Origin: a virus
Length of the DNA: 20,925 nt
Strand: one strand, 5' to 3'
IMG/VR virus record: IMGVR_UViG_3300044980_000105
Span: 1-20,925 of that record
The stretch's first letter is position 1, and the number at the start of each line of letters is the position of its first letter. A program made the translations under genes and the position numbers. The notes beneath the pieces were generated by a model. It worked only from the letters and a program-made list of their open reading frames with translations, was not told the DNA's origin and did no database searches. Of the stretch, positions 2,902 through 20,011 are shown in pieces.

Positions 2902-3365
2902 TGACGCCAATCCCCACCTACGCCGCGCTGCTGGCGTTCATGCGGGCGCAGCTCGACCGGCTGCAGATGTCGACGGAGGTCTACGACCATCATGCCGGGT
3001 GGGCTGACGGCTCGGCGGCAACCGTATTGAACGGCCACAAGCATTTTTCCGGGCCGTCGCTGTTCCTGGCATTGAACGCGCTGGGCTGCACGCTCCTGGT
3101 GGTAGAGGATCCGGGATTGGTGGCACGGATCAAGAAATCATCGAAGTACAAGCTTCGGGCTGACAATGTTGTCATGGGGATGCGTCAAAGCCCGGTAGTA
3201 CGTAGACGTATACGTAAGTTCACGATGCTGCTGGACGACACCCGGGTAAACGGCCGCAATGGCGGTCTGGCGCGTGCGAAGTTAGGGCCTAAAAAGCTGT
3301 CTAAAATCAACCGCAAGGCCGCTTTGACCCGCTGGCGGCAGGCCAGGAAGGTGATGGTCACATGA
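2901..3365 (+). CDS. HTH-like regulator with basic C-terminal motif
   Basis: The product has 154 residues. Residues 9-62 resemble an alphaproteobacterial family of small HTH-like proteins: FMRAQLDRLQMSTEVYDHHAG, GSAATVLNG and LFLALNALGCTLLVVEDP. After a charged middle, residues 120-154 form a basic motif with GRNGGLARAKLGPKKLSK and then RKAALTRWRQARK, the RKAA-x-ARW pattern common at the ends of DNA-binding phage proteins. The ATG at 2901 shares its first base with the previous stop. The last 27 residues resemble most of the 37-residue product at 3816. DNA binding is likely; the target is unknown. Confidence 0.6.
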   Translation: MTPIPTYAALLAFMRAQLDRLQMSTEVYDHHAGWADGSAATVLNGHKHFSGPSLFLALNALGCTLLVVEDPGLVARIKKSSKYKLRADNVVMGMRQSPVVRRRIRKFTMLLDDTRVNGRNGGLARAKLGPKKLSKINRKAALTRWRQARKVMVT

Positions 3366-3535
3366 GCTTAAAGTTTTTGCCGGTGGAGCTAAGAGATAGC
3401 CACGTCGCCCTGAGAATGGAAGGCAGTATGAAAAAGCGTATTGAAACTCTTGCGCGGCAAGAGAAAAGAACAACAAGCGACGTTATGCGGCTTCTTTTGG
3501 AAGAAGCGTTGAAGGCGAGGAAGGCAAAATGTTGA
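3362..3535 (+). CDS. Ribbon-helix-helix protein, Arc/CopG-like
   Basis: The product has 57 residues and fits the ribbon-helix-helix fold. A strand at about 14-19 (HVALRM) is followed by helix A (MKKRIETLARQEK), a turn with TTSD, and helix B (VMRLLLEEALKARK). RHH proteins dimerise through the strand and insert it into the major groove. This is the size of phage Arc. The start ATG overlaps the previous stop (ATGA), and the stop lies seven bases inside the next gene. A transcriptional regulator is the best call; an antitoxin is possible, but the next gene does not look like a known toxin. Confidence 0.7.
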   Translation: MSLKFLPVELRDSHVALRMEGSMKKRIETLARQEKRTTSDVMRLLLEEALKARKAKC

Positions 3536-3819
3536 CACGTCGCTCGCTATTCGGTGCAATTTTCTTGCCTGTTTCTCCTGCGCAGGCAACCAAATCCCGT
3601 ATTGATTTTCCTGCGGAAACTTGGAAGCGCTGGTACTATCAATATCATGCCTTGTGGCAGGAACTTGTGTGGAAAACGAGAGGATTGCCAGACCCAAAAA
3701 GGGTGGATTTACGGATTTTATATCAGCGTGCAAAGCAAGAAGGCTACGAATCCGCCAGAGCGTGGTTGCAGTATCTTGAAAGTTGCCGCAAAAACCCCAA
3801 TGCGGCGGACAAGATATGA
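3529..3819 (+). CDS. Hypothetical protein with candidate Tat signal peptide
   Basis: The product has 96 residues. The N-terminus has a twin-arginine pattern: TRRSLFG, a mildly hydrophobic stretch (AIFLPVS) and an AxA-type cleavage site (PAQA before TKS) at about residue 20. The remaining 75 residues are Trp/Tyr-rich and look helical (WYYQYHALWQELVW, ARAWLQYLESCRK). I do not recognise the mature domain. GAGGAAGG lies just before the ATG. If the signal works, the protein would be exported folded by the host Tat system, rare for a phage early gene. A cytoplasmic protein with a chance RR motif cannot be excluded. Confidence 0.6.
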   Translation: MLTRRSLFGAIFLPVSPAQATKSRIDFPAETWKRWYYQYHALWQELVWKTRGLPDPKRVDLRILYQRAKQEGYESARAWLQYLESCRKNPNAADKI

Positions 3820-3929
3820 TCCCGCTCACCCCGCGGGCCGCAAAGCTGACGCCGAAGCAACTGAGCCGCGCTGCCAAACGCGCCAATTTTGTGCGGTGGC
3901 GCGAGGCCAGAAAGGCGGTGGTGACATGA
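3816..3929 (+). CDS. 37-residue basic protein, duplicate of a regulator tail
   Basis: The frame encodes 37 residues, strongly basic (AKLTPKQLSRAAKRA, RWREARKAVVT). It aligns without gaps to the last 27 residues of the product of the 2901 gene, including the terminal V-x-VT. The final 34 bases, through the stop codon and ATGA junction, match 27 of 34 bases in the other copy (3896-3929 against 3332-3365). It is coupled by ATGA at both ends. It may be a free-standing copy of a nucleic-acid-binding tail, or the remnant of a duplicated larger gene. Confidence 0.5.
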   Translation: MIPLTPRAAKLTPKQLSRAAKRANFVRWREARKAVVT

Positions 3930-4363
3930 ACCGCCCCACACCAAAACAATGGCTGCAATGGGATGGATTTGAACGCACTTGCAGTCCGCCAGCAATGTAC
4001 GGAACGATTATTGGGCATTACATCGGACGTTTTAAGAATGGTAAGCCGCGCTATGGACCGTGGATTTTTCCAAGCACACAACTTCTAACGTGCCAACAGT
4101 GTGGCACGATCGGCGGCCCAAAACTTGTGCGGGCCAGATTCTATTATGCGAGTTCAAATCCGTCAGGACGAGGAAAGACGGTTTGGTGGCCGACAGCACC
4201 TCGTTTGGATGCCTGCAATAGGTGTCATCGAAAAAATCAAAGGGATTTTCTTAGGTTTTTAGAGTGCAAACGAACCTTCTACCAACTCAACAAGCTAAAG
4301 GAGCTAATAAATGTCAAACGTAAAGATCAAGAAAACCGGAGACCTGCGGAAGTTTCTGGTTGA
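3926..4363 (+). CDS. Zinc-ribbon-like hypothetical protein
   Basis: The product has 145 residues. Two CxxC pairs, CQQC at about 55-58 and CNRC at about 96-99, sit some 40 residues apart, the spacing of a zinc ribbon with an insertion, and aromatic and basic residues lie between them. The C-terminus is lysine/arginine-rich. The ATG at 3926 overlaps the previous stop by ATGA, and the 3' end overlaps the next gene by 53 bases in another frame. Nucleic-acid binding is plausible; no catalytic motif is seen. This stretch is lower in GC than the later modules, consistent with separate origin. Confidence 0.6.
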   Translation: MNRPTPKQWLQWDGFERTCSPPAMYGTIIGHYIGRFKNGKPRYGPWIFPSTQLLTCQQCGTIGGPKLVRARFYYASSNPSGRGKTVWWPTAPRLDACNRCHRKNQRDFLRFLECKRTFYQLNKLKELINVKRKDQENRRPAEVSG

Positions 4364-4707: not shown

Positions 4708-5012
4708 AAAAAGGCCATAGAATAACAGAGCCGCGTAGACTGGTTGAGCAGATGGTCGAGCAGGAAGAATTCGTCGAATGGCTGCGCGAGGCTACCCACA
4801 ATCCGCGATTATATCTGGAACTCATGGCTCCCGATATCCTGGCAAAATGGGCGACCTATTACGATGTCGGAATGACAGCATACCAAGCACGGGAGGGAAT
4901 GCAGCAATGGCTGAACGGCCCGCAACTGCTCGTATCAAGAATTTCGAGCAAAACCGAACAGAATTCGCTGACGCGCCCGCGGAAGAAGTCTGGCGGCCGG
5001 AACCGCACATGA
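4701..5012 (+). CDS. Hypothetical early phage protein
   Basis: The product has 103 residues. The first 70 residues are helical and acidic, with EEFVEWLREATHNP and a YLELMAPDILAKW segment. The tail is basic (TRPRKKSGGRNRT). GGAGG lies nine bases before the ATG. The stop makes an ATGA overlap with the WbuC-like gene, placing the sugar cassette in the same transcript. The function is unknown; the architecture (helical domain plus basic tail) gives no firm clue. Confidence 0.6.
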   Translation: MLKKGHRITEPRRLVEQMVEQEEFVEWLREATHNPRLYLELMAPDILAKWATYYDVGMTAYQAREGMQQWLNGPQLLVSRISSKTEQNSLTRPRKKSGGRNRT

Positions 5013-5533
5013 TTCCGCTCACCCGCCAATCGGCCGAGGTGTATTTTGCCGCGCAGCCGATTGCGCCGATCGGGCACGCGGAGATCAAATTCCTCAAGGA
5101 CGCGGCCATGCGCTCGCTGCGGCAACGCTGCCGCATCTGCCTGCACGCGGGCGAGCAGGCGCTGCTGCACGAAACCGTGCTTTGCTACACCAGCGACACG
5201 TTCAACCGGCCGAACCGGCATCCGATGGCGGAGAGCTTCCATGTGCTGGAAGGCGCCTGCGACGTGATCTTTTTCACCGAAGATGGCCGCCCCGACAAGG
5301 TATTGCGCATGGAGGCGGCGGTGCGCGGCAACGGCCGGCCGTTCATCGTGCAGTTCCCGGTGATGGTTTACCACACCATGATCGTGCGCTCGCAGTGGCT
5401 GGTGATTCACGAGACCTGCCGCGGGCCGTTCGTGCGCGGCACCACCACGCAATACGCGCCGTGGGCTCCGCGGGAAACCGATGCGACGGATATCGAGGAT
5501 TTCCTGGCCAAGTTGGAGGGATATTGCAAATGA
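5009..5533 (+). CDS. wbuC: WbuC-like cupin metalloprotein
   Basis: The product has 174 residues, close to the usual length of the WbuC family of O-antigen gene clusters. A single cupin fold is recognisable: NRPNRHP with His71, Glu75 in AESFHVLEG, then VIFFTEDG, and YHT with His122. The last block, ETCRGPF...YAPWAPRE, matches the family's E-x-x-GP-x-x and FAPWAPEE signature. WbuC proteins accompany deoxysugar and surface polysaccharide genes; their exact reaction is unsettled. I chose the ATG at 5009 because it gives the ATGA overlap and the family length; an upstream in-frame ATG at 4907, after GGGAGGG, would add 34 residues overlapping the previous gene. Neighbouring SDR and C-methyltransferase genes support a sugar role. 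Confidence 0.75.
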   Translation: MIPLTRQSAEVYFAAQPIAPIGHAEIKFLKDAAMRSLRQRCRICLHAGEQALLHETVLCYTSDTFNRPNRHPMAESFHVLEGACDVIFFTEDGRPDKVLRMEAAVRGNGRPFIVQFPVMVYHTMIVRSQWLVIHETCRGPFVRGTTTQYAPWAPRETDATDIEDFLAKLEGYCK

Positions 5534-5718
5534 AACATGCTGCACCTGCACGTCGAGCGGTACGCACCAGAATGTGGGCCGCGATTAGTGAAGATGCGCC
5601 GCCACAGATTTATGAAGTGGCGTGGCATCGGATAAACCTTGATCGTCAAGATTTGCGCCATATTCGAGTTAGCGTAGTTCCTGACGTAAAAAAACCTAAA
5701 GCGCCCAAGCCCAAATGA
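5530..5718 (+). CDS. Small hypothetical protein
   Basis: The product has 62 residues, with a basic N-terminus, a central strand-like stretch (YEVAWHRINL, IRVSVVPDV) and a lysine/proline tail (KKPKAPKPK). No family was recognised. It is linked by ATGA to the WbuC-like gene and to the dehydrogenase gene, so it is part of the cassette transcript. It may be a small accessory protein or a neutral linker. Confidence 0.5.
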   Translation: MKHAAPARRAVRTRMWAAISEDAPPQIYEVAWHRINLDRQDLRHIRVSVVPDVKKPKAPKPK

Positions 5719-6347
5719 CCCGCAGCCTGATCATCGGCGCCACGGGCGGCATCGGCCGTGAGGTCGTGGTGGCATTAGCAGCGCGGGGCGATCAAGTTGT
5801 GCCGTTCGGCCGTGAGATGACCAAATGGGGCAGATATCCGGACGAGATCGATTATTTGGTATTTCTGCAACGCAGCCGCGAATCGGAAAACCAATGGCAG
5901 CACGAGTTTAATATCAGCCTGACTGTCACCAAGGAGATCGTGGAATTGATGGCTGATCGCTTTACCGGCAATGACCGCGCGATCGTCATTGTATCCTCGG
6001 TCAACTCGTTGCTGGTAAACAATAAATTGCCAATCGGCTATCATGCTTGCAAAGCCGCACTGGAATCCATGTGCCGGTATTGGGCAGTGGAGTTGGGGCC
6101 GAAGGGCATCCGCTGCAACTGCGTGGCGCCGGGCACGATTCACAAAGGCGGCGCGGAATGGCCGAACAAGGCGTTCCATGAGCGCATCACGCCGCTGCGG
6201 CGCATGGGCAGTGCCGGCGAGGTTGCCGCCGTAATCGCGTTCCTGGCCTCGCCCATGAGTTCTTTCGTGACCGGGCAGACCCTCACGGTCGACGGCGGCG
6301 TGTCGCTGCAATGGCAGGAGAGCTTGGCTGCGGGGGTTCAGAGTTAA
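5715..6347 (+). CDS. Short-chain dehydrogenase/reductase
   Basis: The product has 210 residues, somewhat short for classical SDRs (about 250), with a compact region after the cofactor site. The Rossmann motif GATGGIG is at 8-14. The catalytic set is visible: Asn66, a serine in VSSVNS at 94-98, and Tyr109 and Lys113 in YHACK. NCVAPG at 135-140 and the C-terminal LTVDGG are standard SDR blocks. FGR after the second strand hints at NADP(H) preference. The substrate cannot be read from the sequence; between a WbuC-like cupin and a sugar C-methyltransferase, reduction of a keto-sugar is the natural inference. It is coupled to the preceding gene by ATGA. Confidence 0.85.
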   Translation: MTRSLIIGATGGIGREVVVALAARGDQVVPFGREMTKWGRYPDEIDYLVFLQRSRESENQWQHEFNISLTVTKEIVELMADRFTGNDRAIVIVSSVNSLLVNNKLPIGYHACKAALESMCRYWAVELGPKGIRCNCVAPGTIHKGGAEWPNKAFHERITPLRRMGSAGEVAAVIAFLASPMSSFVTGQTLTVDGGVSLQWQESLAAGVQS

Positions 6348-6864: not shown

Positions 6865-8142
6865 ATGACCTATCGCAAGCGCACCACATGCCGGCTGTGT
6901 GACAGTACGCAGCTTATTATTGCACTGCACTATCCGCCGCAGCCATTGGCGGATGCGTATCTTAAGAAACTTACGGGTCAAACTGATAAGATTTATCCCC
7001 TCGACCTGTACTTATGCGAGGAATGCGGCTGTGCGCAGCTACTGGATGTGGTGAGCGGCGACGAGATTTATCCGCAATACACCTACGAGACCGGTTCAAG
7101 TCCGGCATTGGTGGAGCATTTTCAGCAGTACGCGCTTGATGTTTATGAGAAAATTCAGCCGAACCCAAGCGGGCTGATCGTCGATATTGGCGGCAACGAC
7201 GGCACGCTGCTCGACTGGTTTCGGATGTTCGGGATGCGAGCAATAAATATCGATCCTGCGCCGGTCAATTCGAATATCGAAGATATGGTGCGGATTTACC
7301 GCTTCTTCGATGCCGCCAATGCTGAGTTCATCCAATCGAAATGGGGTCACGCCTCGATCGTCACGGCCAACAACGTCTACGCCAACATCGACGATCTGCG
7401 CAGCTTTACCGAGGCGGTGCGCAACTTGCTTGCACCGGATGGGGTATTCGTATTCGAGACGTTCTATCTGGCTGATTTCATTGACAATATGGTGTTCGAT
7501 TTCATCTATCACGAGCATCTGACGGCATTCAGCCTGGCGCCATTAATTGGGTTTTTTCAGCGGCTTGGGATGCAGATATTCGACGTGCAGCGCGTGCCGA
7601 CCAAGGGCGGCAGCATCCGCGTCTATGTGCAGCACGAAGGCGGCAGGCGGCCTGTCACGCCGGATGTGCCGGCATTGGTGGAATGGGAGTATTTGCGGGG
7701 GTTGCATAAGTTGCAAACGTATTACGAGTTTGCTCACAAAATTTCTTTAGCTCAAGAAACATTTTGGCATTGGCTCTTGTCGTCTACGCCACAAAAGGCA
7801 ATAATTGCTGGCTATGGAGCTTCTCCAACATCTACTACCTTGATTTATAATTGGAGCTTAGGTGCGCATATTGATTATCTGATCGATGATTGGCCGGCCA
7901 AACAAGGCACATTCAGCCCTGGTTTGCATTTACCGGTGTATGAAAGCGATCAATCGCTGAATGGCTTTGAAATGGGCAGGCATCCCGATTACGTCATCAT
8001 CCTGGCCTGGCGCTATGCCGAGCAGATCATGGCCCGCAATCCGGGCTACCGCGGGACGTGGATCGTGCCGTTGCCGGAATTGAGGGTCATCAAGGCCAAT
8101 AGCTTGGCGATCGGCTCTGGAATCGGCGAGCCGGCGGCGTAG
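6865..8142 (+). CDS. Sugar C-methyltransferase, NovU/TylC3-like
   Basis: The product has 425 residues with the full three-part architecture of SAM-dependent sugar C-methyltransferases. A zinc-binding N-terminus has C9xxC12 and C51xxC54. The SAM domain has VDIGGNDGTLL at 106-116 and an acidic residue ending the second strand (NID at 128-130). The catalytic region has YHEHLTAFS at 215-223, equivalent to the Tyr/His/Glu/His set studied in TcaB9. The C-terminal domain begins with GYGASPTSTTL, the GYGA motif. Known members methylate C3 of TDP-4-keto-2,6-dideoxy sugars for branched deoxysugars in O-antigens or antibiotics. All key residues are present, so activity is expected. The last 97 bases run through a leftward gene on the opposite strand. 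Confidence 0.88.
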   Translation: MTYRKRTTCRLCDSTQLIIALHYPPQPLADAYLKKLTGQTDKIYPLDLYLCEECGCAQLLDVVSGDEIYPQYTYETGSSPALVEHFQQYALDVYEKIQPNPSGLIVDIGGNDGTLLDWFRMFGMRAINIDPAPVNSNIEDMVRIYRFFDAANAEFIQSKWGHASIVTANNVYANIDDLRSFTEAVRNLLAPDGVFVFETFYLADFIDNMVFDFIYHEHLTAFSLAPLIGFFQRLGMQIFDVQRVPTKGGSIRVYVQHEGGRRPVTPDVPALVEWEYLRGLHKLQTYYEFAHKISLAQETFWHWLLSSTPQKAIIAGYGASPTSTTLIYNWSLGAHIDYLIDDWPAKQGTFSPGLHLPVYESDQSLNGFEMGRHPDYVIILAWRYAEQIMARNPGYRGTWIVPLPELRVIKANSLAIGSGIGEPAA

Positions 8143-8246
8143 TTTTGCGCGGTGCGCAGCGTCACGCCGAGCATGGATGCGGTTGCCTTGGCATGTGGGG
8201 TCAGGCCTAGCGTTTTGAGCGTGGCGAGATAATCTTCCGTCGTCAT
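8046..8246 (-). CDS. Small HTH DNA-binding protein
   Basis: The product has 66 residues. Residues 3-52 resemble a small alphaproteobacterial and phage HTH family: YLATLKTLGLTPHAKATA, LGVTLRTAQNYAAGSPIP and PIAKLLALM. The recognition helix would be LRTAQNYAAG. The start overlaps the preceding leftward gene by ATGA, making a two-gene leftward operon. Its final 97 bases lie antisense to the 3' end of the C-methyltransferase, so transcription of the two operons should interfere. It probably acts as a local regulator. Confidence 0.7.
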   Translation of the reverse strand: MTTEDYLATLKTLGLTPHAKATASMLGVTLRTAQNYAAGSPIPEPIAKLLALMTLNSGNGTIHVPR

Positions 8247-8482
8247 TGCGGATGCTCCATGGTGCAGCCTTTACTGCAGCGGAATCGCTTGTGCCGAATG
8301 TTGTTTATGCGGCCAAAGTGACCGCAGCGGCACGTCAGCCACACCAATCCGCGGGGCACCAGTTCGGCTTTGCCGAGCTCGGCCAGATAAGCGTTGCGAT
8401 CGATTTCATCGCGCAACACCGCATTTGATTGGCGTCGACTGCGATCTTTGGCCCAATTCAGTGCCATTGCGCAGATTATCAT
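8243..8482 (-). CDS. Small zinc-ribbon protein
   Basis: The product has 79 residues from the ATG at 8482, or 74 from the ATG at 8467; neither has a clear ribosome binding site. The C-terminal half has TCRCGHFG and RFRCSKGC, four cysteines in a short CxC...C-x3-C arrangement typical of a zinc ribbon. The N-terminal half is charged and helical. It is the upstream gene of a two-gene leftward operon with the small HTH protein. A perfect terminator hairpin for leftward transcription lies immediately upstream, so its own promoter must lie between that hairpin and the gene, or transcription must read through. Confidence 0.55.
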   Translation of the reverse strand: MIICAMALNWAKDRSRRQSNAVLRDEIDRNAYLAELGKAELVPRGLVWLTCRCGHFGRINNIRHKRFRCSKGCTMEHPQ

Positions 8483-8490
8483 ACTGCGCT

Positions 8491-8531
8491 ACAAAAAGAA
8501 GCCCGGATCGGCGGTGAGCTCGATCCGGGCT
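8491..8531 (-). terminator. Rho-independent terminator for leftward transcription
   Basis: AGCCCGGATCG at 8500-8510 and CGATCCGGGCT at 8521-8531 form a perfect 11-base-pair stem with a ten-base loop. Read on the minus strand, the stem is followed by TTCTTTTTG. On the plus strand no T-run follows, so the element is directional. It lies upstream of the leftward zinc-ribbon gene, so it either ends a leftward transcript born in the noncoding region or works as an attenuator. Confidence 0.75.
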
Positions 8532-9923: not shown

Positions 9924-10203
9924 CCCTTCATTCTTTCGCAAGGGCGGCCTGCTCATGCCGCTTGGGCCGGACCAGGTGCATATCCAGGTCGGCAAGAACG
10001 GCGACGGCTCGTGGTATATTCAGCTCGACGGCAAGCCGAACCGGGACAAGCCGGGGCTGATGCGCAGCCATATGACGCCGCGGCAGATGTTCGAATTGTG
10101 CGCGGGCACGCTGTCGGCCATGGGATATACCAACCTGGATATCAAGCCGCCGGACGAGGATGCGAGCTACCAGCAGATGATGGATGAGGCGAACCGGGCG
10201 TGA
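9895..10203 (+). CDS. Small phage protein between terminase genes
   Basis: The product has 102 residues. The middle reads as alternating strands (VHIQVGKNGDGSWYIQLDG), then a helix with TPRQMFELCAGTLSAMGY and an acidic C-terminus. I do not recognise the function, but genes of this size often lie between the terminase subunits. The ATG at 9895 follows AGAGG at nine bases; an upstream TTG is less likely. The start lies 29 bases inside the small terminase gene, and the stop overlaps the large terminase start. Confidence 0.65.
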   Translation: MYSHSKDLNDPSFFRKGGLLMPLGPDQVHIQVGKNGDGSWYIQLDGKPNRDKPGLMRSHMTPRQMFELCAGTLSAMGYTNLDIKPPDEDASYQQMMDEANRA

Positions 10204-11663
10204 CCCAGCCGTCGCAGGCTGAGCTGCGGGAAATCCTCACAACTCTCGAGGCGATCGATCATCGCAAGACCTATCAGCGGGCGTATTACTTCGAGCCGTA
10301 TGAGAAGCAAAAGCAGTTCTTCAATCTCGGGAATATCAAACGCGAGCGGCTGCTGACGGCCGGCAACCAGCAGGGCAAGACGGAAGCCGGCGCGTTCGAG
10401 GCTTATGTTCATTTGACTGGCGACTATCCTTCTTGGTGGAAAGGGCGGCGTTTTGCGAATGCCACCAAAGGCTGGTTGGTTGGCAAGACATCGGTAGTCA
10501 CGCGCGATACCATACAGAAAAAGTTGTGCGGCGAACCGGGCGTCGACTCTCTGTTTGGTACGGGGATGATCCCGAAGGACAGCTTTGTTGACAAACCATC
10601 CTTGGCGCGCGGTGTTACTAATGCCTATGACAGTATTCATGTTCGACATAAATCAGGCGGCATCAGCATCGCTCGTTTCAAGTCATATGACCAGGGCCGT
10701 GAAGTGTTCCAAGGTGAGACTTTGGACTGGTTCTGGAATGATGAGGAATGCCCGATTGAAATTTATATGGAAGAATTGGCGCGCATTACCGCCACTAACG
10801 GGATTGGTTTCACGACTTTTACATCCATGCTGGGCGATACCAAGCTGACCGAGCGATTTCTAAGCGACAAGGGCGTCGATCGCGATGTGGTTCAGATGGG
10901 GATCATCGATGCCTTGCACATTCCAAAGGAACAACACGCAGCTCTTATTGCGCAATATCTTCCGCACCAGCGCATTGCCCGCATTTACGGCGGCATCATG
11001 CGTGGTGAAGGTCTTATCTTCACGACGCCGGAGGAAAGCCTGAAAGAACCCCCGATCACCCAGATCCCGCCGTTCTGGGTGAAAATCTGGGGCATCGACT
11101 TCGGCATCGGCCACCCGTTCGCGGCTGCATTGCTGCTGTGGGACAGAGACGAGGATGTAATCCATGTCCACACCACGATACGAATGGCTGATGCTTTATC
11201 CATCGTTCACGCCGACAGCATCAAACGAATTGGAGCCGACGTTCCCGTGGCTTGGCCTCGGGATGGGACGGAAAGGGATTCTCATTCAGGCGAGCCTCTG
11301 GCCTCGATCTACAAGAAGCACGGACTCGCCATGCTCGGCGAGCACGCCACCTGGTCGGAAGGCGGATTGAGCACCTATGCGGGCGTCAAGGAGATGGACG
11401 AGCGCATGAAAACCGGCCGCTTCAAGGTGGCCAATCATCTGGAAGAATTCTTCCAGGAATACCGCAACTATCACTACAAGGACGGCAAGATCGTCAAGAT
11501 CAAGGACGACATACTCAGTGCCGTGCGTATCGGCATCATGATGAAGCGCCATGCCCGTTCGGTGGCATTGGGCGGCCAGCGCGCCAAGCGCAACGACCCG
11601 CGGCTCAAGTTCGCGGTTGGGTCGCCGCTGCACCCCGATGGGGACATTAATATCTTTGGCTAG
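10200..11663 (+). CDS. terL: Terminase large subunit
   Basis: The product has 487 residues, the normal size for the packaging motor. The ATPase domain has Walker A GNQQGKT at 55-61, Walker B around LDWFWNDEE at 175-183 with the catalytic Glu, and a coupling motif TTFTSMLG at 205-212. The RNase H-like nuclease domain has Asp300 in GIDFGIGHP, Asp355 in PRDG, and Asp436/437 in KDD at the third acidic position. The start is a GTG at 10200, overlapping the previous stop by GTGA; no ATG fits the conserved N-terminus. It pumps DNA into the prohead through the portal and cuts concatemers. All motifs appear intact. A weak stem (11658-11675) spans the stop codon. Confidence 0.92.
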   Translation: MTQPSQAELREILTTLEAIDHRKTYQRAYYFEPYEKQKQFFNLGNIKRERLLTAGNQQGKTEAGAFEAYVHLTGDYPSWWKGRRFANATKGWLVGKTSVVTRDTIQKKLCGEPGVDSLFGTGMIPKDSFVDKPSLARGVTNAYDSIHVRHKSGGISIARFKSYDQGREVFQGETLDWFWNDEECPIEIYMEELARITATNGIGFTTFTSMLGDTKLTERFLSDKGVDRDVVQMGIIDALHIPKEQHAALIAQYLPHQRIARIYGGIMRGEGLIFTTPEESLKEPPITQIPPFWVKIWGIDFGIGHPFAAALLLWDRDEDVIHVHTTIRMADALSIVHADSIKRIGADVPVAWPRDGTERDSHSGEPLASIYKKHGLAMLGEHATWSEGGLSTYAGVKEMDERMKTGRFKVANHLEEFFQEYRNYHYKDGKIVKIKDDILSAVRIGIMMKRHARSVALGGQRAKRNDPRLKFAVGSPLHPDGDINIFG

Positions 11664-12343: not shown

Positions 12344-12562
12344 ATGGCCGACATGTTTTCTTCGCCCGGCGCGTCAAATCTGTTCTCGGGCGGCGCACTG
12401 ACCGATCAGGTCGCCAACGAGACCGACGAGGAACGGCGCAAGCGATTGCTGGCCCAGCAGCAGCAACGGTTGCTGCCGTCCACTGCAGGCACGCCGGGGG
12501 CCTCGTCGCTAGGTCTGTCGCTCACCGGCTATGGCGCGGGAGCGGGACCAGGTGGCAGATAA
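12344..12562 (+). CDS. Small protein upstream of the portal
   Basis: The product has 72 residues. It has a Ser/Gly-rich start, a charged helix (ETDEERRKRLLAQQQQRLLP), and a Gly-rich end. The pattern E-x-EEERKKRL-x-x-QQQ with a Gly-rich tail is familiar from small genes just before portal genes in podoviruses; the function is unknown. The start codon follows the previous stop directly, and the 3' end overlaps the portal gene by 32 bases. Confidence 0.65.
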   Translation: MADMFSSPGASNLFSGGALTDQVANETDEERRKRLLAQQQQRLLPSTAGTPGASSLGLSLTGYGAGAGPGGR

Positions 12563-14294
12563 GGACACCAGCCGTGGCTACGTTCCGACCGAGGCCGAGC
12601 GCGGCATGTATCAGGCCGACTATCGGCTGTTCACGCAACTGCAAATCTACCGCAACGTGTTTGCCGCGCAGTGGGAGGAAGCCGCCCGGCTGATCCTGCC
12701 CACCTCGCTCAACACCTTCATGTACGGCAGCTATAATTTTCCGGGGCAGAAGAAAACCGAGCAGCAGGTTGATGCCTCTGGAATGCTGGCGCTGACGCAA
12801 TTTGTTGCCATCGCCGACTCGCTGGTCACGCCGAAAAATCAGTTCTGGCACGGCTTCAAGGTCTCACCGGACCTGATGCGCGATCGTGCTGTGCGGGTGT
12901 TCCTCGGCCAGTTGCGCGATATCGTGTTCGATTTCCGCTATCGCACCATCGGCAATTTCGAGGCGCAGAAAACCAACAACTACCAATCTCTTGGCGCGTT
13001 CGGCAATTCGATCATGTTCGTCGACGCCTTCGATAATCGCTGGAACCGCGGCTCGTATGGCCTGCGCTACAAGGCGGTGCCGCTTGGCGAGTGCTTCTTC
13101 GGTGAGAACCATCAGGGCGTGGTCAATACCATCGTGCGCTGGTTCCGCCGTACCGCCGATCAGGCGCGCGAAGCGTTCGGCGAGGAACGCTTGCCGGGCG
13201 CGCTATGCACTGCGCTCGACCAGAACTCGCAGACGCCGTTCGATTTTCTGCATGTGGTGCGGCCGCGCGATGCCGACGATTATGATCCGCAGCGGCTCGA
13301 CTATAAGGGAATGCCGTTCACGTCGCGATATTATTGCATTCAGGGCGAGACCCTGATGGCGCCTGAAAGCGGCTTTAGAAAGTTTCCCTATGCGGTGTCG
13401 CGCTACGACCAGACGCCGGGCGAAGTCTACGGCCGCGGTCCGGCGCAGATGGTGCTGCCGTCGCTCAAGACGCTGAACGCCCAGAAGCGCACCTTCCTCA
13501 AGACCGGCCATCGCGCCGCCGATCCGGTCTATCTGATCGGCGACGACGGCTTGATGTCGCTCGACCAGCGGCCGGGCGCGATCAATCCGGGCGGCGTTAG
13601 TTCGGACGGCAAGGAACTGGTCAAGACATTGCCCGTAGGAAATGTGCAGTTCACGCTCGAGATGATGCAGGAAGAACGCTCCATCATCGACAACATGTTC
13701 TTCACACCGCTGTTCAAGACGCTTACCGACCATCCCGACATGACCGCAACGCAGGTGATTGAGCTGTTGAACGAGCGTGGCATGTTGGTGGCGCCGACGC
13801 TCGGCCGCCAGCATTCCGAGAACATCGGCAACATGGTGCCGCGCGAGGTCGATATATTGCAGCAGATGCGGCTGTTGCCGCAGGTGCCGCCGGCACTGCG
13901 CGAGGCTGGTGGGCTCGATCTGTTGCAGGTCGAGGATACGTCCCCGCTCGCCATGGCTGCCAAGGGCAATCAGTTGGCCGGCTTCAACCGATGGGTCTCG
14001 CAGTTGCACGAATGGGCCAGCGTCACCGGCGACATGTCCGTGCTGGACCCGGTGAACTTCACAACCGCAGTGCCGGATTCCGGCCGCATCCAATCCGTCA
14101 AGGAGGATTGGATCTCAACGCCGCAGGAGATTGCCGCCAAGCAGAAGAACCGTGCTGCAGCCGCACAACGGCAGGCGGCTAACGAGGCGGCGCCAGGGCA
14201 AGCGGCGCTGATGAACGCCCAGGCCAAGATTCAGAAGCTCAATCCCGGTATGCAGCAAGGAGCGCAGCCGCAACCGCAGCCAACGCTACAATGA
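12531..14294 (+). CDS. Portal (head-tail connector) protein
   Basis: The product has 587 residues, within the normal range for podovirus connectors (500-700). It opens with a helical region including TQLQIYRNVFAAQWEEAARLI, followed by a conserved mid part (GRGPAQMVLPSLKTLNAQKR at about 303-322) and NMFFTPLF then DHPDMTATQVIELLNERG at about 385-415, the stem and helical segments characteristic of the head-tail connector family. A Q/A-rich tail follows. It forms the dodecameric ring through which DNA enters and to which the tail attaches. The ATG at 12531 is 32 bases inside the preceding gene. Identification rests on these blocks and on gene order. Confidence 0.88.
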   Translation: MARERDQVADKDTSRGYVPTEAERGMYQADYRLFTQLQIYRNVFAAQWEEAARLILPTSLNTFMYGSYNFPGQKKTEQQVDASGMLALTQFVAIADSLVTPKNQFWHGFKVSPDLMRDRAVRVFLGQLRDIVFDFRYRTIGNFEAQKTNNYQSLGAFGNSIMFVDAFDNRWNRGSYGLRYKAVPLGECFFGENHQGVVNTIVRWFRRTADQAREAFGEERLPGALCTALDQNSQTPFDFLHVVRPRDADDYDPQRLDYKGMPFTSRYYCIQGETLMAPESGFRKFPYAVSRYDQTPGEVYGRGPAQMVLPSLKTLNAQKRTFLKTGHRAADPVYLIGDDGLMSLDQRPGAINPGGVSSDGKELVKTLPVGNVQFTLEMMQEERSIIDNMFFTPLFKTLTDHPDMTATQVIELLNERGMLVAPTLGRQHSENIGNMVPREVDILQQMRLLPQVPPALREAGGLDLLQVEDTSPLAMAAKGNQLAGFNRWVSQLHEWASVTGDMSVLDPVNFTTAVPDSGRIQSVKEDWISTPQEIAAKQKNRAAAAQRQAANEAAPGQAALMNAQAKIQKLNPGMQQGAQPQPQPTLQ

Positions 14295-14751: not shown

Positions 14752-15047
14752 AAGCGCCACAAAGCATCATCGAACTGGTACGCCGGCTTGGCTTTCGCAA
14801 GCGGGGCTATCAGGTGGTGTTCGGTGTGCCCGGTACGGCTGGCCACGCGGCGTTTTCCGATCTGGCGCGGTACTGTTGTTTCTTCGAGGGCGAGGTTGCC
14901 AAGAGCCATGATGAGACATTGATCCGCATTGGCCGCCGCGAGGCGTTTCTGTATATTTGGAAGCATCTTAATCTCACGACCGAGGAACTGGCGGCGCTGT
15001 ACCGCTCGGCCTATCCGACTTTGATCAGTCAACAGGGAGAAGAATAA
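14748..15047 (+). CDS. Bbp19-like phage protein
   Basis: The product has 99 residues from a GTG that overlaps the previous stop. The core, FSDLARYCCFFEG followed by H-x-E...RIGRREAFLYIWKHLNL and TTEELAALY, matches the small protein named after Bbp19 of Bordetella phage BPP-1, which has the same place before scaffold and capsid genes. The function is not established. The resemblance supports assigning this phage to the BPP-1-like group. The stop shares a base with the scaffold start. Confidence 0.75.
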   Translation: MKAPQSIIELVRRLGFRKRGYQVVFGVPGTAGHAAFSDLARYCCFFEGEVAKSHDETLIRIGRREAFLYIWKHLNLTTEELAALYRSAYPTLISQQGEE

Positions 15048-16009
15048 TGCTGTGGCACGCAAAAGCTGGAATGTTCTATTCACCCGAAGGCGACGCTCCT
15101 GGCGCCGCACCCGCACCCGCGGCTCCCGCCGCGCCCGGTGGGGCCGTGCCTCCTCCCGCTGGTGGCGCAGGCGGGGCAACGACTTGGTATCAGGGGATCG
15201 ACGCTGACCTGTTGGGTCACGCCAATAATAAAGGCTGGAAGATTGATGATCCCAAGACCGCGTTCGAGACCGCGGCCAAGGCGCACCGTGAGGCACAATC
15301 AAAGCTCGGTGTTCCGGCGGAAGAACTTTTGCGACTGCCGCGCGCAAATGCTTCCGAGGGCGATATAAAATCTTTTCGTTCTAAGCTCGGTGTTCCAGCA
15401 GAACCAAAGGATTATGATCTCTCGGGGATCAAATTTGCTGGTTCCGACTTGGATCAAGGGTTTGCCGATTCTCTGCGTAGAGGCCTGTATGAGGCCGGTG
15501 TCCCAAAGGACAATGCGCAGGCAGCAATCAAGCCCGTTCTTAAATATTTGGAAGATCAGGAGGTCGAGGAAAACGCCGTTATGACGGCGAAGGTGTCCAA
15601 AGAAATGGAGGATTTAAACCGTTCCTGGGGTGTCAATAAGGATAGAAACGAGTTTATCGCCAAATCTTTTCTATCAAAACTTGCGCTTGCCGCCGGTGTG
15701 GACGCGACAACTGCGACTACAGCTTGGGATGCGTTGTCCAAGGTTGGTGGTGTCGGCGCTGCCGCGGCCATGAAGATGCTGCTCGAAGGGGGTATCCGCA
15801 CTGGCGAGGATCGTTATGTGTCCGGCGGTGCGCCGGGTAGCAACATGCCGTTATCGCGTGAGGGCGCATTGGCCAGACTACAAGCCATCAAAGGTAATGA
15901 TATCAATACCGGAGATGTTGATTTCAAAAAGAGGCTGGCCGCAGGAAATCAGGCAGCCAAGGATGAATGGAAGGCACTTCATCAAGTTGCTTTTGGCAAG
16001 GTAGCTTAA
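15047..16009 (+). CDS. Scaffold (capsid assembly) protein
   Basis: The product has 320 residues. Residues 17-45 are Ala/Pro/Gly-rich; the rest is helical and charged. An eight-residue unit, SKLGVPAE, occurs twice (about 84-91 and 111-118), with the second followed by PKDYDLSG, a pattern typical of podovirus scaffolding proteins. AGGGAG lies upstream of the ATG. A mid-part coiled segment (about 165-190) and a hydrophilic C-terminus (MPLSREGALARLQAIKG, DEWKALHQVAFG) fit a protein that guides coat assembly and leaves the head. Position between Bbp19-like and capsid genes supports the call. Confidence 0.75.
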   Translation: MLWHAKAGMFYSPEGDAPGAAPAPAAPAAPGGAVPPPAGGAGGATTWYQGIDADLLGHANNKGWKIDDPKTAFETAAKAHREAQSKLGVPAEELLRLPRANASEGDIKSFRSKLGVPAEPKDYDLSGIKFAGSDLDQGFADSLRRGLYEAGVPKDNAQAAIKPVLKYLEDQEVEENAVMTAKVSKEMEDLNRSWGVNKDRNEFIAKSFLSKLALAAGVDATTATTAWDALSKVGGVGAAAAMKMLLEGGIRTGEDRYVSGGAPGSNMPLSREGALARLQAIKGNDINTGDVDFKKRLAAGNQAAKDEWKALHQVAFGKVA

Positions 16010-16021
16010 AGGAGAAATCAA

Positions 16022-16183
16022 GTGCCCCCGGTGAGCGAGAAACAAAGACGTTTGTTTCGCTGGGCCGCGGCACATCCCGGTGCGGCTGCCAAGCGCGGCA
16101 TCAAGCAGTCGGTAGCCAAGGAGTTCAACGCGGCCGATCCTGGCGGCAAGCTGCCCAAGACCAAGCACATCAAGAAGAAATAG
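16022..16183 (+). CDS. 53-residue basic phage protein (SEKQRRLF motif)
   Basis: The frame encodes 53 residues from a GTG preceded by AAAGGAG, an excellent ribosome site. The sequence, VSEKQRRLFRWAAAHPG, then KRGIKQSVAKEFNAADPGG and KLPKTKH, matches a very common short phage protein of pattern SEKQRR-x-M-x-AA ... IP-x-x-V-x-EF-x-x-AD-x-GGKLP, whose function is not known. It is lysine-rich at the end. It lies between scaffold and the GT-like gene. Confidence 0.7.
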   Translation: MPPVSEKQRRLFRWAAAHPGAAAKRGIKQSVAKEFNAADPGGKLPKTKHIKKK

Positions 16184-16184
16184 C

Positions 16185-17408
16185 ATGTCCGATTCACGCG
16201 AAGATGTGCCGGCGCTCGGCAACAAGGCCGTGGTCGACATGCTCGAGCAGGTTCTGGCCGAGGCCAGGAAGGGCAAGATGTGCCATATTGGCGTCATCAT
16301 GTCCCAGCATCCGGCCAGTCACGGCATCGGCATTGCCGGTGAGGTCGCGCTGGGCGAGGTGTGCAAGGCCGGTATTGTCGACCTGATCAATCAGATCGAC
16401 GCTCGCAACAAGAACGGCATCATGCCGCCGCGTGACGAAAGCCTTGGCGAGAACTACGTCACCTACAACATGGTGGTCTGCCCGGTCAGCTTCGACTATC
16501 TGTTCTGGCTGGTCGACGCGCTTATGCGGATGAAAGCTGCCGGGCTGCCGGGGCCGCTCAAGGTGGCGTTCTGGAAAGGCCAGGACGGCATCGGCCGGCT
16601 CAATGAGCCGATCATCCGGCAGTTCTTCGACGGCGTGCTGCGACCGTTGCTGCCGCTGTTCGGGGCCGTCGAGGTCAGTCCGGCCAAGTTCATGGGCCGC
16701 TGCAAGAACCTCTATGTGCCGCGCGATATCGTCGATTATGTCAAGGAAGGCCAGAAAGTGCCGATGGCCAAGGCACCGGGCGGCGCCAAGCTGGAAGTGG
16801 CGTTGTGGCTCAAGAAACGCGGTATCTCCAATCCGGTGGTGATCACATTGCGCGAGGCACAGCATTGGGATCATCGCAACAGCAATATCGACGCGTGGTT
16901 GAGGTTCGCACAGGATCTGGAACGCCAAGACGAGCAAGTCGTGATCGTGCGCGATACAAGACGTGCCATGGATGGACTGCCGGGTTGGAACACATATCCC
17001 GAAGCCGCGCTAGACCTGCACATCCGTACCGCACTTTATGAGGCCGCCAAGGCCAATCTGTTCGTCGCCAACGGCCCGGCCGCGCTGGCCATGTTTGTCG
17101 ATCGGTCGACATTCTCGTTCACGCCGCTCGAGCCGGACGGCCACACCTACTTTCCCAACACGCCGCAGTTCTGGCAGGCCAATATGGGCATCTCGCCGCC
17201 GGACGAGGACAGGTTTCCATGGTTTCGGCCGGATCAGTTCCTGGTCTACGGCCACGATACTTATGAGAATATCTGCGCAGCATGGGAGCGGCTAAGGCCC
17301 ATGTTGCAAGGGAATGGAGTGGTACATAGCCTCGGCCATGCCTCTCATGAAACAAATCCCACCGTTGGCCTGAGTGTTGCCGAAACCCGCAAGGACACCT
17401 TCGGCTAG
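16185..17408 (+). CDS. Fusion of small phage domain and glycosyltransferase-like domain
   Basis: The product has 407 residues. Residues 10-70 (AVVDMLEQVLAEARKGKMCH, VALGEVCKAGIVDLINQ) resemble a free-standing small phage protein. From about 90, the sequence follows a GT-B-like pattern: VVCPVSFDYLFWLVDALMR, VVITLREAQHWDHRNSN at 218-234, QVVIVRDTRR at 251-260, and RTALYEAAKANLFVANGP at 281-298, the sugar-nucleotide-binding end. I recall this arrangement from surface-polysaccharide enzymes related to heptosyl- and sialyltransferases; the donor is unknown. It sits between scaffold and capsid genes, where most podoviruses have nothing comparable. No upstream ribosome site is clear. Confidence 0.6.
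   Translation: MSDSREDVPALGNKAVVDMLEQVLAEARKGKMCHIGVIMSQHPASHGIGIAGEVALGEVCKAGIVDLINQIDARNKNGIMPPRDESLGENYVTYNMVVCPVSFDYLFWLVDALMRMKAAGLPGPLKVAFWKGQDGIGRLNEPIIRQFFDGVLRPLLPLFGAVEVSPAKFMGRCKNLYVPRDIVDYVKEGQKVPMAKAPGGAKLEVALWLKKRGISNPVVITLREAQHWDHRNSNIDAWLRFAQDLERQDEQVVIVRDTRRAMDGLPGWNTYPEAALDLHIRTALYEAAKANLFVANGPAALAMFVDRSTFSFTPLEPDGHTYFPNTPQFWQANMGISPPDEDRFPWFRPDQFLVYGHDTYENICAAWERLRPMLQGNGVVHSLGHASHETNPTVGLSVAETRKDTFG
17318..17335 (+). repeat. 18-base repeat, copy 2 (in the GT-like gene)
   Basis: This is the second copy of the sequence at 11662-11679, with one base changed. In the reading frame of the GT-like gene it encodes V-V-H-S-L-G near residue 379. See copy 1. Confidence 0.5.
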
Positions 17409-17511: not shown

Positions 17512-18441
17512 ATGGCCGCGCAGACCGAATTCCAAGGTCTATCCTCAGTATTTACGCAGGAGTTCTCGAGCAACGTCGAATTGCTCCTGCAACAGATGAC
17601 TTCCAAGATTCGCGGCAAGACCCGCGAAGGCAGTCATACCGGCAAGGCGGCGTCGCCGATCAATCAGTTCGGTGAAGTCGCGGCCCGTGCGCCCACCGGC
17701 CGCTTCGCTCCGCTGCAAATCCAGCAGCCGGACGCGATTCGCCCCTGGGTGTTTCCGCAGCCGGTCGAAATCCCGCAACTGATCGATAGCTTCGATACCG
17801 AGGAAACCATCGTCTCGGTGCAGGGACCGTATACGCAAGCCGCCGCCGCGGCGCTCGGCCGCGCCTATGACGACGCGCTGATCGCGGCTTCGACCGCATC
17901 CCGCCAGTTGGGCACCGATACCGGCACGCTGACGGCAACCAGCTATTCCACCACCAATTTCCAGGTGGCTTCCACCTTCGGCTCATCGTCAGCGTCGGGG
18001 CTGTCGGTCGCCAAGATGATCGAGGCGCGGCGTATTCTCGAGCATTACCACAACGACCTCGAGATGGACCCGCCGTTCATGGTCATCGGCAGCCAGCAAC
18101 ACGCCGACTTGCTCAACCAGGTTCAGGTGGTGTCGACGGAATTCAATGAGCAGCCGGTGCTGGTCAACGGCCGCGTCCGGCGCTTCCTCGGCTTTGAGCT
18201 CATCGTGTCCGAGCGTCTGTCGCAGGCGGCGTCCGTCCGCACCGTGTTCTGCTCGGTCAAGTCGGGGATGTATCTCGGTATCTGGAAAGACATGGTGAAC
18301 TTCGCCGACTATCGCTACGACCTGTCCGGCCGGCCGCTGCAGTTGCTCACGCAAGCCATGTACGGCGCGGTGCGGCTGCAGGACGGCAAGGTGGTCTCCA
18401 TCCTGTGCTCGGACTCCACCGGCGCAGACATTACGCCTTGA
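17512..18441 (+). CDS. Major capsid protein
   Basis: The product has 309 residues. It opens with a helical N-arm, FTQEFSSNVELLLQQMTSKIR, followed by a loop with RFAPLQIQQPDAIRPWVFPQ, and a spine-like helix (QAAAAALGRAYDDALIAAST). MIEARRILEHYHND at about 170-183, VIGSQQHADLLNQVQ and FLGFELIVSERL are the P- and A-domain-like blocks of HK97-fold coat proteins of the BPP-1 type. The late strand region (KSGMYLGIWKDMVNFADYRYDL) fits the same fold. It would form the icosahedral shell. A GGGG element eight bases upstream may serve as ribosome site. Confidence 0.85.
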   Translation: MAAQTEFQGLSSVFTQEFSSNVELLLQQMTSKIRGKTREGSHTGKAASPINQFGEVAARAPTGRFAPLQIQQPDAIRPWVFPQPVEIPQLIDSFDTEETIVSVQGPYTQAAAAALGRAYDDALIAASTASRQLGTDTGTLTATSYSTTNFQVASTFGSSSASGLSVAKMIEARRILEHYHNDLEMDPPFMVIGSQQHADLLNQVQVVSTEFNEQPVLVNGRVRRFLGFELIVSERLSQAASVRTVFCSVKSGMYLGIWKDMVNFADYRYDLSGRPLQLLTQAMYGAVRLQDGKVVSILCSDSTGADITP

Positions 18442-18451
18442 GGAGCCAACC

Positions 18452-19087
18452 ATGGCCGTCGATTCACTAAAGTCACAGTCGATCACCAACCTGGACGCTA
18501 CGCCGTATGTCTACAACTCGGCAGGTCAGGGCGCACCGGCGCGGTTCAATACGGTGGACGATCTGGTCGGTCTGACCACCAATGGTCTGGCCTCGACCGG
18601 CTCGACCTATCGCATCATCCGGTTTCCGACCGGCGCCATCCCGAAGTCGCTGACGGTCTATATCGACAGCTACGCGGATTCGCATTCGACGCCGGCCGTG
18701 GTGTTCGACCTCAACGTGGTGTTCTCGGATTCGACCATCGACGGTACGCAGCCGGCGCTGCAGGGCCTGATCCCACAGACCAGCAACAACGGCAACACCA
18801 CCACGTTCACATCGTACTCGTCGCCGAACTTGCTGTTCGGGCAGCTCACCCCGACCTCGGCCACGGCTGCCTATGGACCGACCGATCTGATCTTCAACGG
18901 TGTCGGTACGACCTATACGGCGCTGAACCTGATCATGCAGCCGATCTGGCAGACCTTTGGCTTTGTTGACAAGCGTAGTAATCCGGCCGATCCCGGCGGC
19001 TACTTCGATCTGGTGGCCTATATCTCGACGGCGGCCACCACGCCGCACGCCGCGAACTTCTACGCCCGAATGAGTTACGCGAAGTAG
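18452..19087 (+). CDS. Probable capsid decoration or cementing protein
   Basis: The product has 211 residues, rich in Ser, Thr, Asn and short strands (STYRIIRFPTG, KSLTVYIDSYADS, VVFDLNVVFSDS), with few charges; this is the composition of beta-sandwich virion proteins. In BPP-1 the gene after the capsid encodes a cementing protein with a jelly-roll fold, so position and composition together suggest the same role; sequence homology was not established. GAGGAG lies seven bases before the ATG, consistent with high expression alongside the coat protein. Confidence 0.55.
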   Translation: MAVDSLKSQSITNLDATPYVYNSAGQGAPARFNTVDDLVGLTTNGLASTGSTYRIIRFPTGAIPKSLTVYIDSYADSHSTPAVVFDLNVVFSDSTIDGTQPALQGLIPQTSNNGNTTTFTSYSSPNLLFGQLTPTSATAAYGPTDLIFNGVGTTYTALNLIMQPIWQTFGFVDKRSNPADPGGYFDLVAYISTAATTPHAANFYARMSYAK

Positions 19088-19348: not shown

Positions 19349-20011
19349 ATGCCGTCAGAGAACACCAATATCCTCAATCTGGTCGGCAATGTCGGCGATC
19401 CGACACAGACCTCGCAGCCGGACGGTTCGACGCCGCCGTTTACCGTTGGCCGCCAGGGCGACAATCTCGCGTCCGACCTGCACGGCAAGTTCTGGACCGC
19501 CAACTATCGCAACAAGGTGTTCTCGGCCCAGGCGCTTGGCACCACCACCACCGGCATTACCATTCCGGTCGTTACCGCAACATTGGCCTCGGTGTTCACG
19601 CTGTACAATCCGCCGACATCGGGCGTGATTGCGGAAATCATCGATACGACGTTGCTCAACGTGTCCGCGACCACCGTTGTCGACATCTTCGGCTGGTACG
19701 CTTCCCCGCAACCGCAATCGGCCGCTGGCACGTTCACCACCAAGGGTACGGTCAATTCCGGCAAGGTCGAGGCGCCGAGCGCCAACCAGGTGTCGTTTTA
19801 TTCTTCGTACACCCATTCCGGAACGCCGACGATCTTTGCCGTGATCGGTGGCTATGGCGCCGTGAGCAATGCCTTCGGCCCGGTCTACAAGTTCTTCGAC
19901 GGCAGCCTGACATTGCCGCCCGGCATTGCGATGTCGCTTGCCGGCAACGTCGCTGCCGGCACCACAACTGGCATGGCCGCCGAAGTCCGCTGGGTCGAGT
20001 GGCCGTTATAA
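19349..20011 (+). CDS. Probable virion structural protein
   Basis: The product has 220 residues. It contains the segment GRQGDNLASDLHGKFWTANYRNKVFSA at about 34-60, a block (RQG-x-x-x-SDLHG-x-(Y/F)) that I recall from phage structural proteins. The remainder is strand-rich with Ser/Thr/Gly and a closing SLTLPPGIAMSL motif like the edge of a beta-sandwich. It may be a head fibre, decoration or minor head protein. TAGG lies a few bases before the ATG. Confidence 0.6.
   Translation: MPSENTNILNLVGNVGDPTQTSQPDGSTPPFTVGRQGDNLASDLHGKFWTANYRNKVFSAQALGTTTTGITIPVVTATLASVFTLYNPPTSGVIAEIIDTTLLNVSATTVVDIFGWYASPQPQSAAGTFTTKGTVNSGKVEAPSANQVSFYSSYTHSGTPTIFAVIGGYGAVSNAFGPVYKFFDGSLTLPPGIAMSLAGNVAAGTTTGMAAEVRWVEWPL

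Follow-up and report, generated by a model that had tools for sequence, protein, structure and literature searches.

A predicted GT9-like glycosyltransferase with an N-terminal phage domain encoded among phage head genes

We have analysed a virus record 20,925 bases in length (hereafter the window) that carries, between a scaffold-like gene and the major capsid gene, a gene whose product is modelled as a GT-B glycosyltransferase with a GT9-like (heptosyltransferase) fold. The catalytic region is preceded by a small domain homologous to the phage family phrog_796. Judging from its conserved residues, the enzyme is probably active. Our leading interpretation, to which we give about even chances, is that an active GT9-like enzyme with a phrog_796-like domain is made together with the head proteins and glycosylates a virion protein.

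Domain architecture and fold

The gene occupies positions 16185-17408 of the window (+ strand, as do all window features given below), exactly where the first-pass annotation had placed an ORF, and codes for 407 aa. The ORF, the structure model and the relatives divide the product into a phrog_796-like N-domain, a GT-B (GT9-like) glycosyltransferase region and a disordered tail. Its start lies 1 nt past the stop of a 53-aa ORF (16022-16183; phrog_16759, E 3.6e-11). This small ORF, directly coupled to the glycosyltransferase gene, has similarity to the initial part of larger structural proteins of virions (phrog_25121 and phrog_22033).

In direct HMM scans, none of the Pfam, NCBIfam and PHROG models claimed the gene at cut-off, and single-sequence searches with the protein against phages, plasmids and the PDB returned nothing significant. 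A first structure model, built from 5 sequences only, was useless (pLDDT 37). The AlphaFold2 model obtained from 44 sequences reached a pLDDT of 90.1 and a pTM of 0.87. In this model, residues 88-378 (16446-17318) form two Rossmann-like domains facing each other across a cleft, the arrangement by which the GT-B superfamily is recognized. When the model was compared with the PDB (Foldseek and VIA-align), GT9 enzymes ranked first, matching over residues 87-376, with many GT-B structures among the top matches. The Z scores were 15.9 for 3tov, 15.7 for WaaF (3.5 Å over 236 residues), 14.1 for WaaC and 12.4 for TibC.

Profile-profile comparison with E. coli WaaF/WaaC/WaaQ/WaaU gave a probability of 80%, and the negative controls, seven further proteins from the same locus, did not exceed 0.5%. 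By sequence, GT9 membership (Pfam Glyco_transf_9) was not detected, with no Pfam family matching any of the five clade members at E values up to 10, and the A2 profile yielded only chance matches against PDB sequences. The GT-B-like domain proposed by the first-pass annotation was thus borne out by a model of high pLDDT whose closest PDB structures are GT9 glycosyltransferases.

The N-terminal domain (residues 12-77, 16218-16415) has a helix-strand-strand-helix layout. Compared by hhalign with seven proteins that are members of phrog_796 or close to it, it gave 97.1% across 63 columns; the catalytic half, as control, gave 0.2%. Direct matches to the phrog_796 HMM were weak in all five clade members (E 0.01-0.09), and searching the virus records one at a time gave E values of 4e-5 to 6e-4. 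A structural search of viral models retrieved phage proteins of 77-82 aa, including one of PMBT14 that is a phrog_796 member by sequence. The phrog_796-like proteins of the Pseudomonas phages PMBT14 (L074:2465-2698) and ZQG1 (L076:2462-2698) carry the deposited annotation pyridoxamine 5'-phosphate oxidase, which is probably mistaken.

Standalone phrog_796 genes are often found just before the terminase gene. The fusion to a phage domain foreseen from the sequence stood, but calling its partner a structural-region protein was too strong, since one phrog_796 gene lies among DNA-metabolism genes and no virion role is known for any of them. That the N-domain might bring the enzyme to heads is, at this point, a bare idea.

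Relatives and conserved residues

A direct search for relatives recovered four close viral ones, about 70% identical, and no others; 53 candidate stretches from bacterial genomes yielded none. A consensus glycosyltransferase sequence had no matches as a query, and a phrog_796 consensus recovered true members. The degenerate DNA pattern R-N-S-x4-W-x2-F-x13-V-x-D-T matched 54 viral stretches, most of which were full or partial relatives according to profile searches. Matches to a second pattern (TLRE-x6-RNS-x4-W-x2-F) were obtained in 71 viral and 26 bacterial-genome stretches, among which relatives were likewise confirmed by profile search.

In the resulting tree, the bacterial sequences formed one group (support 100/96). 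The N-domain was present in 46 of the 64 viral rows and in 0 of the 17 bacterial rows, and none was found in the bacterial loci. The bacterial homologues apparently reside in polysaccharide, ABC-export or nonulosonate clusters, their neighbours having been read by eye. For one of them (L096, a Dehalococcoidia MAG), the neighbours read in this way were sialic-acid-type synthase, CMP-sugar synthetase and MptE-like genes, suggestive of a nonulosonate cluster.

Several variant architectures were observed among the phages. In a sister subgroup, an MptE-like domain (PF01973) takes the place of the phrog_796-like N-domain ahead of the same glycosyltransferase (L026, L028, L042, L060, L061, L063 and L069). 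This subgroup has a phrog_20268 gene nearby, and its capsid gene is mostly of the phrog_9953 type. The neighbour family seen most often, phrog_20268, was set aside as a feature of the MptE-fused subgroup rather than of the window gene's clade. Two paralogous copies occur in each of four phage contigs (L048:1638-2852 and 7503-8516; L058 with L126; L112 with L124; L131:1885-2616 and 3056-4090), some of the pairs being near each other. In L118:1427-3010, a 528-aa ORF combines an N-terminal glycosyltransferase with about 250 more residues of unknown kind. An endonuclease V-like protein with an extra C-terminal region (L031:8794-9732) adjoins another relative.

The 44-sequence alignment was gathered with the first pattern only. 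Within it, G297, P345, W346 and Q351 were invariant and F129, P154, G189, P193, L222, R223 and E224 nearly or fully so, all of them positions that this pattern did not require. The invariance of residues contained in the search patterns (R-N-S-x4-W-x2-F) was partly imposed by the search itself, and the patterns likewise demanded the donor-side motif R231-N232-S233 (16875-16883; TLRE-x6-RNS).

The candidate catalytic base is D104 (16494-16496), located where the first helix beyond strand 1 begins; 37 of 38 relatives have Asp at this position and the remaining one has Glu. The catalytic base is D13 in WaaC (PMC5713226) and D110 in TibC (PMC4358343). D104 would be their equivalent, the match being one of position rather than of residue-level structural alignment. 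WaaC D261, the other important acid of that enzyme, has no acidic counterpart: it aligns with A295 or N296, and Asn or Ala/Ser is found there. Alignment and profile comparison showed that N296-G297-P298 (17070-17078) replaces the GT9 D-[ST]-G motif.

Head-gene context and sugar cassette

Upstream of the glycosyltransferase gene lie the genes for the terminase large subunit (10200-11663) and the portal, a head-tail connecting protein (12531-14294; PF12236, E 4e-80). They are followed by a phrog_3742 gene (15047-16009; E 1.1e-19), whose "scaffold" label is based on its position alone, between the portal and capsid genes. The major capsid protein is encoded downstream (17512-18441; PF19821, E 5.3e-49), so the glycosyltransferase gene is flanked by scaffold-like and capsid genes, in agreement with the initial annotation. 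Based on this position, the enzyme is probably made together with the scaffold and capsid proteins.

Two further head-module proteins are rich in Ser and Thr. The product of 18452-19087 (22.7%) is kept beside the capsid gene in relatives, and that of 19349-20011 (22.3%) has a homologue in L072 that directly precedes the glycosyltransferase. The corresponding content is 17.2% in the capsid protein and 8-11% in the terminase, portal and scaffold proteins. Both products, together with the capsid protein, are candidate acceptors.

The order terminase-portal-scaffold-glycosyltransferase-capsid is conserved in the clade, the L001 record stopping before the capsid gene. It is likewise scaffold-glycosyltransferase-capsid in G033, whose enzyme is about 46% identical, and the gene is farther downstream in the same head module in L071 and L072. 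Other relatives are near phrog_371-type capsid genes (L024, L025, L050 and L064; somewhat farther in L058 and L037) or phrog_9953-type ones (L026, L036, L041, L042, L060, L063, L069 and L118), and some adjoin terminase or portal genes. Taken together, glycosyltransferase genes lie a few kb or less from capsid genes of three families (the PF19821, phrog_371 and phrog_9953 types), a pattern that supports a virion glycosylation system but does not on its own define one.

A sugar cassette is located farther upstream. It comprises a WbuC-family cupin (5009-5533; TIGR04366, 98.5 bits for a cut-off of 42; start set at an internal ATG), a short-chain dehydrogenase (SDR; 5715-6347; PF13561, E 9e-35) and a sugar C-methyltransferase-like protein (6865-8142; Methyltransf_13/23/14; PF08484, E 6e-35; G000-G003 only). 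The three genes are present in all four clade records that reach the region (G004 being too short to cover it), with the same order upstream of the terminase gene in G001, G002 and G003. Outside the clade, the PF08484 methyltransferase domain was found in none of the 47 other records searched. Among the 23 other long records, an epimerase match was found in one and a GT2 match in four, two of these above cut-off. The predicted co-occurrence of the enzyme with the cassette therefore held in the clade but not in the wider family. With the cassette missing there, these relatives would mostly rely on host sugar nucleotides.

Proposed function and comparison with known systems

We propose that the enzyme would use a nucleotide sugar, supplied by the host or, for this clade, altered by the WbuC-SDR-C-methyltransferase cassette. 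The sugar may be transferred to a virion protein, the candidates being the major capsid protein and the Ser/Thr-rich products of the head genes that come next, and the benefit could be shielding or an altered particle surface. Most simply, a glycosyltransferase encoded with head proteins would act on head proteins, although gene position by itself leaves the acceptor unfixed. The capsid glycosylation first raised for this locus gains partial support from a GT-B enzyme found beside head genes in phages of three capsid families; the accompanying link with sugar genes fails outside the clade. A bolder version is possible, and we hold it only tentatively: that a widespread phage glycosyltransferase family, equipped with a docking domain confined to phages, puts a sugar coat on capsid or head-decoration proteins while heads are being assembled, and that some phages provide a C-methylated sugar for this from their own cassette.

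Action on a host surface glycan is a serious rival, since both the nearest folds and the apparent bacterial context point to surface polysaccharides. The enzyme would then modify LPS core, capsule or O-antigen late in infection, blocking superinfection or the re-binding of progeny to debris, and its site among head genes would only set late expression. WaaF and WaaC, the nearest folds, act on LPS, and the polysaccharide-cluster context of the bacterial homologues, as read by eye, would fit a glycan acceptor rather than a protein. The sugar cassette near the gene in this clade is compatible with the same reading. Against it, the gene recurs within head modules across different phages, in some cases with a scaffold gene on one side and a capsid gene on the other, whereas genes of the superinfection type more often occur as morons away from the head module. 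On balance, we regard this rival as somewhat unlikely.

Glycosylation of a modified base in phage DNA, as performed by the T4 glucosyltransferases, would also suit a GT-B enzyme, those of T4 being of this fold. Phage DNA glycosyltransferases are described as widespread in work cited in PMC12619734. However, candidates for a thymidylate-synthase-like hydroxymethylase, a marker of base hypermodification, were present in only 2 of 50 gene-carrying records, and the gene sits with head genes and not with replication genes, making this role improbable.

We consider it just as improbable that the enzyme performs one step in the synthesis of a multi-sugar glycan, alongside a second glycosyltransferase, instead of the protein-linking step. 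The paralogous pairs in four phage contigs would agree with such a division of labour, as would the sister subgroup fused to an MptE-like domain, a superfamily that includes the Maf flagellin glycosyltransferases. Most records, however, have a single copy, and few have a GT2 gene. Finally, a catalytically dead GT-B fold serving as a head or assembly protein would be in keeping with the head-gene location and with the replaced second GT9 acid, but is similarly improbable in view of D104 and of the TLRE, NGP and PW-Q motifs, all of which persist, as an active site would, in relatives at about 30-40% identity.

Glycosylation of a virion protein by the phage enzyme is the reading we carry forward. 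Phage virion glycosylation is known from few cases, and a glycosyltransferase family encoded in head modules across different capsid-protein families, with phage-specific fusions, offers a sequence signature to predict and test it in uncultured phages. If true, it bears on particle recognition, stability and host interaction. We found no publication describing this glycosyltransferase family or the fusion in the libraries searched, which leave out most subscription journals; within them, both appear undescribed.

The closest structural counterparts are E. coli WaaF and WaaC and Veillonella 3tov. The phage enzyme resembles them in its GT-B fold over residues 87-376 (Z 14-16), in the position of an Asp that opens the first helix after strand 1 and in a remote similarity of donor-domain profiles. 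It differs in being only 9-13% identical, without a Pfam GT9 match, in having N-G-P where GT9 has D-[ST]-G, and in carrying an N-terminal phage domain and being encoded in a phage head module.

With the autotransporter heptosyltransferases Aah/TibC (TIGR04414), it shares the GT-B fold and an extra N-terminal domain before the catalytic core. These enzymes perform protein O-glycosylation. The TibC N-domain is a beta-barrel, and TibC has a hairpin thumb and an iron finger in addition (PMC4358343); the helix-strand-strand-helix N-domain of the phage protein is a different fold. HMM matches to this protein heptosyltransferase family were weak and below the curated NCBIfam cut-off in 5 of 44 relatives (best E 0.0094), and the window protein had none. 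Weak HMM similarity to the TIGR04372 glycosyltransferase family was seen for 16 of the 44 relatives, with a best E of 4e-4. Membership was rejected, the clade scoring about 16 bits, at most about 17, against a cut-off of 45 bits; no TIGR04372 match was found in 12 genomes holding bacterial homologues of the gene.

The phrog_796 proteins are homologous to the N-domain, standing alone there and being fused to an enzyme here. As to virion glycosylation itself, the account consulted for the mycobacteriophage Maravista places the glycosyltransferase genes near the 3' end of the genome, not among the capsid genes, and reports no such fusion. Virion glycosylation by phage enzymes is established in mycobacteriophages: in Che8 and others, phage glycosyltransferases have been tied to the glycans that capsid and tail-tube proteins carry (Freeman et al. 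2023, as summarized in PMC11256854 and PMC12619734), and phage-encoded glycosyltransferases are what those systems and the present one have in common.
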